This document shows positions 48,263 through 53,357 of a DNA stretch of 64,000 bases, piece after piece. The stretch lies in NCBI RefSeq assembly GCF_024256385.1, contig NZ_JAMLFW010000001.1, forward strand, positions 1,798,001-1,862,000. Direction: 5' to 3'. A model generated the notes under the pieces. It did no database searches, was not told where the DNA came from, and saw only the letters and a list, made by a program, of their open reading frames with translations. The DNA is from Anatilimnocola floriformis. Its GTDB lineage: Bacteria; Planctomycetota; Planctomycetia; Pirellulales; Pirellulaceae. The position numbers and the translations under genes are program-made. Position 1 is the stretch's first letter; every line of letters begins with the position of its first letter.

Positions 48263-48290
48263 CTGCAATCTGCCATCTGAGATCTGCAAT
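48263..48290. repeat. Dispersed 28-bp intergenic repeat, copy B
   Basis: Inverted relative to copy A at 1501-1528 on the map, but in the same orientation relative to the downstream gene. It ends three bases before the GTG of moxR; 24 of 28 positions agree. Confidence 0.55.
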
Positions 48291-48293
48291 CCA

Positions 48294-49274
48294 GTGATCG
48301 ACGTCAACGGCGCTGCCAAAAAGATCATCGCCAACGTCGAACAGGCGATCGTTGGCAAACGCCAGCAACTAGTGCTCGCTCTGTGCGCTTGGCTCTGCGA
48401 AGGACATATCCTCCTCGAGGATGTGCCCGGCGTTGCCAAAACGATGCTGGCCCGCGCATTGGCCCGCAGCGTCGGCTGTTCCTTCAAACGGATTCAATGC
48501 ACGCCCGATTTGTTGCCTGGTGACGTGACTGGCGCATCGATTTTCAATCCGAAGACGACGGATTTTGAATTCCGCGCTGGTCCGCTCTTTGCCCAGGTTG
48601 TGCTCGCCGACGAAATTAACCGCACCACGCCGTGAACGCAGGCAGCTCTCCTCGAAGCGATGGCCGAGAGTCGTGTGACGGTTGATGGTGTGACTCATAA
48701 ACTCGGGCCGCCATTTCTGGTCATCGCCACGCAGAACCCCGTCGATCATGAAGGGACCTTCCCGTTGCCGGAGGCGCAGCTCGACCGCTTCCTGATGAAG
48801 TTCAGTCTCGGTTATCCCGCGCTCGAAGAAGAACTGAAGATGCTTGAGATGCTGCAGCACAAGCATCCCATCGATGCGCTGCAGCCAGCCGTCTCGGCAG
48901 AGGAAATCGTCGCTTGTCAGCAAGCAGTGCGCAACATTTACGTCGATGACAAGGTCCGCCGTTACCTGATGCAGATCGTGCATGACACGCGCACTCACGA
49001 AGATGTGGCCCTTGGCGGCAGTCCGCGGGCTTCGATCGCGCTCTTTCGTTGCTCGCAGGCTATGGCTGCACTGCGCGGACGAAACTACGTGCTGCCTGAT
49101 GATGTGAAACGCGTCGCGGCCGCGGTTCTGACGCATCGCGTGATTGTGAAACCGGAGAGTCGGCTCCGCAAAGTGACTGCGGCCAAACTGGTCGAAGAGA
49201 TCGTGGCCGAGATCGCTGTTCCAGTGCTGGAAGATCCGAAGACGACGGACAAGCTGGCCGAGAAAATCACATGA
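48294..49274 (+). pseudogene. MoxR-family AAA+ ATPase interrupted by an in-frame TGA
   Basis: The frame would code a 326-residue MoxR ATPase but has TGA at 48633-48635 (codon 114). Before it are Walker A ([11 protein letters not shown]), the pore/sensor region [14 protein letters not shown] and Walker B ([12 protein letters not shown]). After it, in the same frame, come [42 protein letters not shown] and the lid domain, with no frameshift. MoxR proteins usually read RTPPKTQ or RTTPRTQ here, so CGA to TGA is the simplest explanation. A restart at ATG 48660 would give 204 residues lacking the nucleotide site. The stop overlaps DUF58 by ATGA. An assembly error or stop readthrough are the alternatives. 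Confidence 0.85.
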
Positions 49275-50578
49275 TCTGGCCAGCCGCGATCGTGCTGATT
49301 CTGATCATCGCGCTGATCTTTCGGCTCGGGCTGTTGATGTATGCGATGTACACGTTGCTCGGTGTGCTGCTGCTGAGTCGCTATCTCACGCATCGTTGGG
49401 CAGCATCGTTGCAGGCCACGCGCGAGTGCAACCGCTTGGCCGCCGAAGAGGGTGACGAAATCGCGGTCATTATCACCATCGAAAACACCGGCAACCTGCC
49501 TATTCCCTGGGTGATGGTCGAAGACCTGATTCCGCGTGAAGCACTCGTGTATTTGCCGCCGCGACTTGGCGTAACCGGCCCGCGGATGAAGCTCACGCAT
49601 CTTTGGCCGCGGAGCAAACGGGCGATCCGCTATCAGCTGAAGTGCAACCGTCGCGGCTACTATCAGCTCGGGCCGCTCGTTCTGGAGACTGGCGACCTGT
49701 TCGGCCTGCATCGGCAGTTTCGCGTTCTCACCGAACCACAGTTCCTACTCGTCATGCCCGAGGTCATACCGCTGACCGGCTACGCCATCTCTTCGAAGCG
49801 GCCCATTGGCGAAGTCCGCATGACCTATCGCCTGTATGAGGACCCGACGAGGATCAGTGGCGTGCGGGCTTATCAGGAAGGGGACTCGCTGAATCGCATT
49901 CATTGGCGAGCAACCGCGCGGACCGGCGTGCTGCACAGCAAGATTTATGAACCATCAACCGTTGCCGGCACGACGATCTTGCTCGACTTTCACAAGGACT
50001 CGCATGAGCAGCGTCACGAACCTCGGCGCAGCGAACTCGCCATCACTGCCGCTGCCTCGATCGCGAATGCCGTGACGCTGATGGGACAGCAAGTCGGCAT
50101 GATTACCAACGGTCGCGATGCTGCCGATCGCATCCGCACTGAAGGCTGGGCCAGCGACTGGCGAACGCGCGAATCGGCCCAAGTCGCTGCCGGCGTCCGC
50201 GAAACCAGCGATCGCCTGCGGCCCATCGTCATCGGCACTCGGCGCGGTGGTGATCAACTGACACAGATTCTGGAAATGCTCGCCCGCCTCGAACTTACCG
50301 ACGGCTTGTCGCTGACGCAAACGATCCTGGAAACCTCCTCGCGCATGCCCCGCGACGCGACGGTCATCGCTATACTCGCGCAGGTCACTTCCGAGATTGC
50401 CATCGCACTCGGCATGCTCCGGCGTCGCGGTTTGGTCGTCGTGGCGATTCTCAACATCTTCGACATCACGGGATTTGCCGACGCCGCCGGACCGCTCATT
50501 GCCGAAGGGATTGAAACGCGACAGTTGGAGAGCGAGGAATCGGTGGCGGAGATTTGTGCAGCTTATTGGCTGCGGTGA
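49271..50578 (+). CDS. DUF58-family protein
   Basis: A 435-residue protein overlapping moxR by four bases. Two N-terminal membrane helices ([20 protein letters not shown]) precede a beta-rich region ([20 protein letters not shown]). The DUF58 signature [20 protein letters not shown] is near residues 196-215, followed by a von-Willebrand-like fold ([13 protein letters not shown]). DUF58 proteins are encoded with MoxR ATPases in nearly all bacteria and are thought to be clients of MoxR chaperone activity. It is intact although its MoxR partner gene is interrupted. Confidence 0.92.
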
Positions 50579-51326: not shown

Positions 51327-53357
51327 ATGTCTCGTCGCGCCCCCGAAACTCTCGTCGATTGGCTAGTCGTTGGGATCGCGCCGTTCTTGATCATGTTGCT
51401 GGTTGGCAGCCTGGTGTTCTATCTCGTCGAGGTTTTCTATCTCGGCGAATACCAAGCGCGCGTGCTGTTCGTTCTCGGCATGTTTGTGATGGCCACGGTT
51501 TGCATCGCGCGAATTTCGATGGAGGAAGGCGCTGCCTATGCAGCCATGTATGCCGCGCCGCTGGCGATTGCTGTGGGTCTGGCGCTCGCCGCGTTCGTGC
51601 AAGTCAGCGGACCGCTGGCCGCGCTCGGGCCGATGCTCAACTGGGGGCTGATGATTCTCATCTGGTGGTCGGCGAATAAGCTAACCTGGGATTGCACGCT
51701 GATCGAAGGAAGCCGCGACTTTACCGGTCAAGGTTTGATGCAAACCACCGGACTCGATCGGTATTTTCGCGTGCAGAGGCCGCAAACCGCACCGGCGACA
51801 GAGCCTCCATCGCCGCCGCCCGATCTTTCCGGAACCAGCACTACCGAGCGTCCCGCTTCGCTCCCTGTTTGGAAATGGTGGAATTGGACGCGGGGTGAGG
51901 AACGGCCACATGCGCCGGGCGTGTGGGTCGTTTATTTTTCGATCGCCGCACTGCCCCTGTTTGGCTTGGGGCAGTGGTTCATGCCGGCGAACGCGCTCGA
52001 CCTGCGCCGGCGGGCATTCTGGCTGCTCGTGGTCTATGTCGCGGCCGGTTTGTCGCTGTTGATGGCGACCAGTTTCCTCAGCCTCCGTCGTTATCTGCGC
52101 CAACGCAATCAAGAGATGCCTGGTGAGATGGCCGCCGTTTGGCTCGGTACGGGCGGAGCGATTATCGCCATCTTGCTGGTACTCGCGTCGCTCCTGCCGC
52201 GCCCTATTCCGGAATATTCGATCACTCACCTCGCGCCACAAATTCAATCGCCGCAGCAAACCGCCTCGCGTTGGGGTTGGGGCAGCGAAGGAGCGAAAAA
52301 GAAAAACGTCAACTCGCCGCAAACGGCCACGAAGGGCGAGGTTGATCCCGCCACGAAGCAAGGTAGCTCACAAGGAAAGCCGACGCCAAACGCACAAGGC
52401 GCGCCTGCCAAGAACGCATCAGGTTCATCAGGTACCGACGGCAAGAACTCCGGCGGCCAAAGTCAGAGCAACAGCCAGACTAAATCCGGCAGCCAGCAAA
52501 ACGATTCGAAGCAATCATCTGGCAATCAGTCGAGCAATTCAAAGCAGCCAGCAAACTCTTCCGGCGAGCAGAAGCCGCAACCTCAGCAGAACAATCAGCC
52601 ATCGAACGAAGCGAATAACCAAACGCGAAGTAATCCGCAGCAACAGCCAAACAATAGCGATAAAAAATCGTCCAGCAATCCATCTACCGCCAATCCACCG
52701 CAGCAAACTCCGACCAGCAATCCGCCGCCACGCAGCACTCCTCCTGATTCACAAGCCACACCGCCGCTGCCGAATGAGGTCCAAGTTCCGCAGAAGAATT
52801 ATCTGCAGCAGGCCTGGAACATGGTCTTTACCTATCTCACGTACGTGCTGAAATGGGTGTTCTATCTGCTGGTGATCGGCGTCGTCGCTTACTACGCCTG
52901 GCAACATCGCGAATGGCTGCTGGCCGCGTGGCAGCAACTCCTCAAGGAACTGCGCGAGTTGTGGGCGAAGTGGTTTGGACAAAAACCAACCACGACATCG
53001 GCGGTTGCAACGGCTCTGCCTCCGCCGCCCAAGCGTTTCGCGGAGTATGCCGATCCGTTTTCTTCGGGACTCGCCGCTCGCTGGACGCTAGCAGAACTCG
53101 TTCGCTATACCTTCGAAGCACTCGAAGCCCGTGGTCGCGAGCAGAATTGTCCCCGCGGCAATGATCAAACCCCGCTCGAGTATGCAGCAGCCGTCGGTCA
53201 GGTCGAGCCGGGCTTTGCCGGCGAAGTTCATTCGCTAGCAGATCTGTACGGACAGTTGGCTTTTGCCGGGGGCAATTCTTCGCCGCAGTCAACATTACTT
53301 TTACAGCAGTTATGGCTGCATTGGCGGCAATTTCCTGCAGCGAGCTCGCAGACCTAG
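51327..53357 (+). CDS. Multi-helix membrane protein with C-terminal DUF4129 domain
   Basis: A 676-residue protein. About seven membrane helices lie in the first 310 residues (LVVGIAPFLIMLLVGSLVFY, AALPLFGLGQWFM, FWLLVVYVAAGLSLLMATSF). A Ser/Asn/Gln/Pro-rich disordered linker follows at about 335-490 (SGGQSQSNSQTKSGSQQN). One more helix (YVLKWVFYLLVIGVVAYYAW) precedes a DUF4129-like C-terminus (ARWTLAELVRYTFEALEARG, then TPLEYAAAVG). The domain accompanies MoxR/DUF58 sets, so it closes this cluster. The linker marks it as extracytoplasmic or flexible. A transglutaminase partner is absent here. Confidence 0.82.
   Translation: MSRRAPETLVDWLVVGIAPFLIMLLVGSLVFYLVEVFYLGEYQARVLFVLGMFVMATVCIARISMEEGAAYAAMYAAPLAIAVGLALAAFVQVSGPLAALGPMLNWGLMILIWWSANKLTWDCTLIEGSRDFTGQGLMQTTGLDRYFRVQRPQTAPATEPPSPPPDLSGTSTTERPASLPVWKWWNWTRGEERPHAPGVWVVYFSIAALPLFGLGQWFMPANALDLRRRAFWLLVVYVAAGLSLLMATSFLSLRRYLRQRNQEMPGEMAAVWLGTGGAIIAILLVLASLLPRPIPEYSITHLAPQIQSPQQTASRWGWGSEGAKKKNVNSPQTATKGEVDPATKQGSSQGKPTPNAQGAPAKNASGSSGTDGKNSGGQSQSNSQTKSGSQQNDSKQSSGNQSSNSKQPANSSGEQKPQPQQNNQPSNEANNQTRSNPQQQPNNSDKKSSSNPSTANPPQQTPTSNPPPRSTPPDSQATPPLPNEVQVPQKNYLQQAWNMVFTYLTYVLKWVFYLLVIGVVAYYAWQHREWLLAAWQQLLKELRELWAKWFGQKPTTTSAVATALPPPPKRFAEYADPFSSGLAARWTLAELVRYTFEALEARGREQNCPRGNDQTPLEYAAAVGQVEPGFAGEVHSLADLYGQLAFAGGNSSPQSTLLLQQLWLHWRQFPAASSQT

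Follow-up and report, generated by a model that had tools for sequence, protein, structure and literature searches.

The interrupted moxR locus

The DNA analysed here, referred to as the window, is a stretch of 64,000 nucleotides (G000:C1:1798001-1862000) of a genome of 8.93 Mb, assembled in 17 contigs, 99.49% complete and 1.78% contaminated. It contains a gene with AAA_3 and AAA_lid_2 domains, which we take to be a member of the MoxR family, followed by the genes of a DUF58 and a DUF4129 protein (Table 1). From its GTG start codon at 48294, the moxR frame runs for 113 codons to an in-frame TGA, located directly 3' of a motif presumed to be Walker B, and then for 212 further codons to the normal TGA at 49272-49274. 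The internal TGA is the single interruption of the frame and the rest is open, exactly as claimed in the sequence-only reading, an earlier note made from the letters of this DNA.

Table 1. Features of the interrupted moxR gene and its neighbours (window coordinates)
Feature	Position	Strand	Evidence
Interrupted moxR-type AAA+ ATPase gene	48294..49274	+	Frame, Pfam, intact ortholog in the congeneric genome G001 (90% amino acid identity)
First open piece, 113 aa, with presumed Walker A and Walker B motifs and AAA_3 positions 1-76	48294..48635	+	ORF, Pfam
Premature in-frame TGA, codon 114, arginine column in orthologs	48633..48635	+	Sequence, ortholog alignment
Second open piece, 212 codons, remaining AAA_3 and AAA_lid_2	48636..49274	+	Frame, Pfam
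204-aa ORF from the first ATG 3' of the stop	48660..49274	+	ORF; ATG conserved as methionine in the orthologs and in G001
DUF58 protein gene, open, family match	49271..50578	+	Pfam; start overlaps moxR stop
DUF4129 protein gene, open, family match	51327..53357	+	ORF, Pfam

The domain content of the two pieces is complementary. Above the curated Pfam cut-offs, the first piece matches AAA_3 up to position 76, and the second matches its positions 78-131 and the lid. AAA_3 is therefore found in each piece and AAA_lid_2 in the second, as expected of a MoxR-type AAA+ ATPase, and jointly they correspond to one AAA_3 and AAA_lid_2 protein; the same match bears out the earlier claim that both halves stay in one frame with full motifs. 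As one continuous chain, the protein is broken by the TGA at codon 114. Such a break of one domain by a single stop, supported by homology, exceeds the chance expectation. When the stop is replaced by X, residues 8-308 of the read-through protein match the solved MoxR-type structure 2r44_A (E 3.2e-69); no NCBIfam family was found above cut-off with the same query. Unlike 2r44_A and the orthologs examined, which are free of it, the window gene carries a stop inside the core.

MoxR-type AAA+ ATPases with a DUF58 partner are a known arrangement, and the window locus likewise has DUF58 and DUF4129 genes downstream. Both are open and match their families, so that their description as intact in the sequence-only reading holds. 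The ATG of the DUF58 gene at 49271 overlaps the normal moxR stop, an overlap from which we infer that the two genes are probably translationally coupled. Immediately 5' of moxR lies a low-complexity element, CTGCCATCTGAGATCTGCAATC, at 48270-48291; a second copy with 3 mismatches is located on the reverse strand at 1507-1528, where none is expected from 100 shuffles.

The stop codon among relatives and constraint on the frame

An intact moxR ortholog is present in G001, the only congeneric genome compared. The relatives were aligned as 108 rows with more than 68% identity (the best 80 of 218, together with loci from a family search), 89 of which are distinct. Column 114 is an arginine codon in all 108 rows; among the 89 distinct orthologs, it is written CGC in 32, CGA in 23, CGG in 21, AGA in 9, and CGT in 4. 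Arginine also occupies this column in 30 of 30 further regions, which partially overlap the 89, and none of the 89 has a stop before column 300. The comparison with sibling genomes proposed in the sequence-only reading thus gives arginine in G001 and in every ortholog read, the TGA being seen in the window genome only.

The gene is widespread: 155 of the 199 family genomes searched contain it (E <= 1e-120). Many of the rows listed by this search were flagged for a stop inside the match. In every one of the 39 such rows besides the window's own, among the matches listed, the first stop falls 307-316 codons past the match start, which is the C-terminus; 9 of these belong to the family-search loci of the aligned set and 30 were fetched separately, and the stop-free rows were fetched in part. 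A premature stop at codon 114 was seen in none of the relatives read. The best named matches are from Pirellulaceae and other Planctomycetota and are mostly metagenome assemblies. A search of a plasmid collection with a 1.2 kb DNA query returned two matches, at 7% coverage.

The sequence-only reading also attributed the stop to a single change from CGA to TGA. One stop codon is indeed all that separates the frame from an intact one, but the CGA origin is assumed; CGC is the codon in G001 and in two of the three relatives next to it (more than 81% identity), CGA in the third. A prior silent change may have been required before TGA could arise, which would be easy at the dS of about 1.3, near saturation, between the window and G001 copies.

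Between these two copies dN is 0.041 before the stop and 0.081 after it. Over 89 outgroups, the dN of the window copy minus that of G001 averages -0.0148 for the part 5' of the stop and +0.0039 for the 3' part, and is positive in 13 and 55 of the 89 comparisons, respectively. This contrast could be a faint relaxation; no clear excess of amino acid change in the window gene relative to G001 emerges over the same outgroups. The frame contains no second stop or frameshift. At the 106 columns that do not vary among the 108 rows, two changes are seen in the window copy (the stop and a V to A replacement at 199) and none in G001. A crude bound from parsimony counts suggests that constraint on moxR lasted for all but roughly the final 2-3% of the branch. 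Since decay is so slight, with at most this 2-3% of the branch unconstrained, the stop is either very recent, or erroneous, or placed in a gene which is still used. A private stop, intact copies in the relatives, and no long decay are the picture of a recent nonsense pseudogene, as far as one congener allows the comparison.

Nonsense mutation or sequence error

The best explanation, which we consider probable, is a nonsense mutation that has recently inactivated, in this strain, a moxR gene otherwise widespread in the family. There is one stop, in this genome only, at a column where the orthologs have arginine, and the G001 ortholog is intact. Single-nonsense pseudogenes are of an ordinary kind in bacterial genomes, and the window moxR resembles them in having one stop, in one genome, within an otherwise conserved frame. 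The observation is correct and the event is ordinary, with no sign of a new reading of stop codons. Translation would end at codon 113 and yield a short protein with the presumed Walker A and Walker B motifs, which would lack the remaining AAA+ core and the lid and would presumably form no working ring ATPase. The DUF58 and DUF4129 genes would still be open because the event is young. DUF58 may be reached by fewer ribosomes, as the normal moxR stop overlapping its start would no longer be reached. Against the nonsense mutation, constraint up to the present is equally expected of a gene that is translated, and decay is limited to one of the 106 invariant columns besides the stop, in a genome where no orthologous backup was found.

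Spare copies were looked for among the AAA_3 genes. The window genome has 15 AAA_3 matches, 12 of them strong including the broken moxR; in G001 there are 14, of which 12 are strong and none of these contains a stop. The sequence-only reading had suggested a second moxR that could compensate. In a loose sense one does exist, there being 11 other strong genes, but the nearest paralog is 47% identical, G001 has a gene equally far from the query, and neither an orthologous spare nor a recent moxR duplicate was found in the window genome.

A base-calling or assembly error, with moxR intact in the organism, ranks next after the nonsense mutation; it is a tentative and rather unlikely explanation. 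In the assembly of one strain, a base error gives an identical picture. Indeed, both loss of function and base-calling error, named side by side in the earlier reading, fit the results and are mutually inseparable on assembly sequence alone. The error is favored by a frame that looks constrained to the present, by the presence of the gene in most family genomes searched, and by the lack of a second convincing split gene beside moxR in the 860 kb scanned; one wrong base is enough. On the other hand, the assembly statistics are good, and the scan for single stops showed no flood of split genes, frameshifts being covered non-rigorously. These considerations call for caution: the stop carried by a widespread gene in this high-quality genome could be a genuine null allele or a single erroneous base. 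A real stop in a normally living strain would mean that this MoxR can be dispensed with under the conditions in which the strain grows.

The scan for coding signal covered 860 kb of the same contig (G000:C1:1600001-2460000; 683 segments), about a tenth of the genome. It yielded 65 same-frame neighbour pairs separated by exactly one stop, nearly all of which we interpret as neighbouring genes. In 10 of the 65 pairs, no more than 3 codons separate the coding signal from the stop on either side; in 8 of these a start codon lies at most 5 codons past the stop, as in neighbouring genes. This leaves moxR (scores 49 and 111) and a pair at C1:1924260 (scores 14 and 16). The latter (L154:4075-4467, minus strand) is weak, with one TAA, the first start 24 codons on, and no Pfam match in either piece. 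Two further candidates were discarded. At C1:1792584, a complete T2SSE protein is encoded up to the stop and nothing in Pfam matches the piece that follows, which is the pattern of two neighbouring genes; at C1:2190817, a GTG is the sixth codon past the stop and no Pfam match falls within the cut-off (one is below threshold, E 0.078). The 683 segments thus yielded no further convincing case of a gene interrupted by a single stop. In the scan from which the C1:2190817 pair came, the best 60 of 167 pairs were examined, and 85 segments had no start near the computed onset, mostly owing to a blurred onset; neither figure is a rigorous count of frameshifts. Since no other convincing split gene occurs in the 860 kb, TGA does not appear to be broadly reassigned, and single-stop breaks seem rare in the scanned DNA; genome-wide reassignment is further disfavored by the 14 other AAA_3 matches, which are stop-free. 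In the same 860 kb, overlapping 10-mers such as CGTCCGGTGG, GGTGGTTCGT, and GTGGATCGAG are strongly enriched, which suggests a Gly-Ser-rich tandem repeat.

Readthrough, restart, and tRNA genes

It is improbable that the stop is real and tolerated, a working MoxR being made either through a low level of readthrough at the TGA, which follows a proline codon, or through reinitiation at ATG 48660 with the two pieces joining in the ring. Were a working MoxR made by either route, a protein under selection across a stop codon would follow.

Readthrough taken by itself, in which a near-cognate tRNA reads TGA at a useful level and some full-length MoxR results, is still more improbable. The C-terminal part remains conserved, and the stop is preceded by a proline codon; a proline codon in this position slows termination. 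However, the stop is shared with none of the relatives read. Among 68 tRNA matches in the window genome (cmsearch; 150 of 223 candidates scored), all in loci run through ARAGORN, no UCA anticodon was called. Two matches left uncalled by ARAGORN (C2:348-417 and C1:4044957-4045030) have loops without UCA when read by hand, the second showing GTG. Readthrough by a suppressor tRNA is not supported by the tRNAs found. The same holds for RNA structure, as folds around the stop are ordinary (z -0.44 to 1.18).

Selenocysteine is likewise not supported as the meaning of this TGA. Scoring of 150 of 1307 tRNA-Sec candidates in the window genome, and of 150 of 1398 in G001, gave no match above cut-off. 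Among the 8 loci examined, the top two per genome are tRNA-Ser and the remaining four lie at other tRNAs. The SelB model stays below cut-off in both genomes, and column 114 is arginine, not cysteine, in all 89 distinct orthologs. A SelA-family gene is present at G000:C1:1567749-1568822 (L136), and one also in G001, in both cases with no SelB or tRNA-Sec above cut-off. The programmed readthrough proposed in the earlier reading is not supported, given that the stop was seen in one genome only, that no suppressor tRNA was found, that the SelA-family gene is the sole selenocysteine component above cut-off, that the RNA folds are ordinary, and that the 860 kb yielded no second convincing split gene. 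In the open-access papers searched, no report was found on a nonsense mutation of a MoxR AAA gene or on MoxR readthrough.

The least probable account, already offered as an option in the sequence-only reading, is a split ATPase assembled from a polypeptide that terminates at the stop and a second one begun by restart at ATG 48660. This ATG lies 24 bases past the stop, where a terminating ribosome could restart, and restarting would maintain translation into DUF58; nevertheless, it is the conserved methionine codon of 89 of 89 distinct orthologs and of G001, hence no special restart site, no Shine-Dalgarno-like stretch precedes it by eye, and a start there omits core residues 115-122.

Two tRNA arrays were observed in the window genome. 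The first comprises 17 tRNA genes called by ARAGORN and one cmsearch match (L258:2891-5031; G000:C1, about 4042890-4045030), with many different anticodons. Its members score mostly below the other tRNAs of the genome, and no suppressor is among them. Dense low-scoring tRNA arrays of this sort occur on mobile elements or phages. The second array contains 7 tRNA genes (ARAGORN), also with low cmsearch scores, at L259:2371-3605 (G000:C1, about 1432370-1433604).
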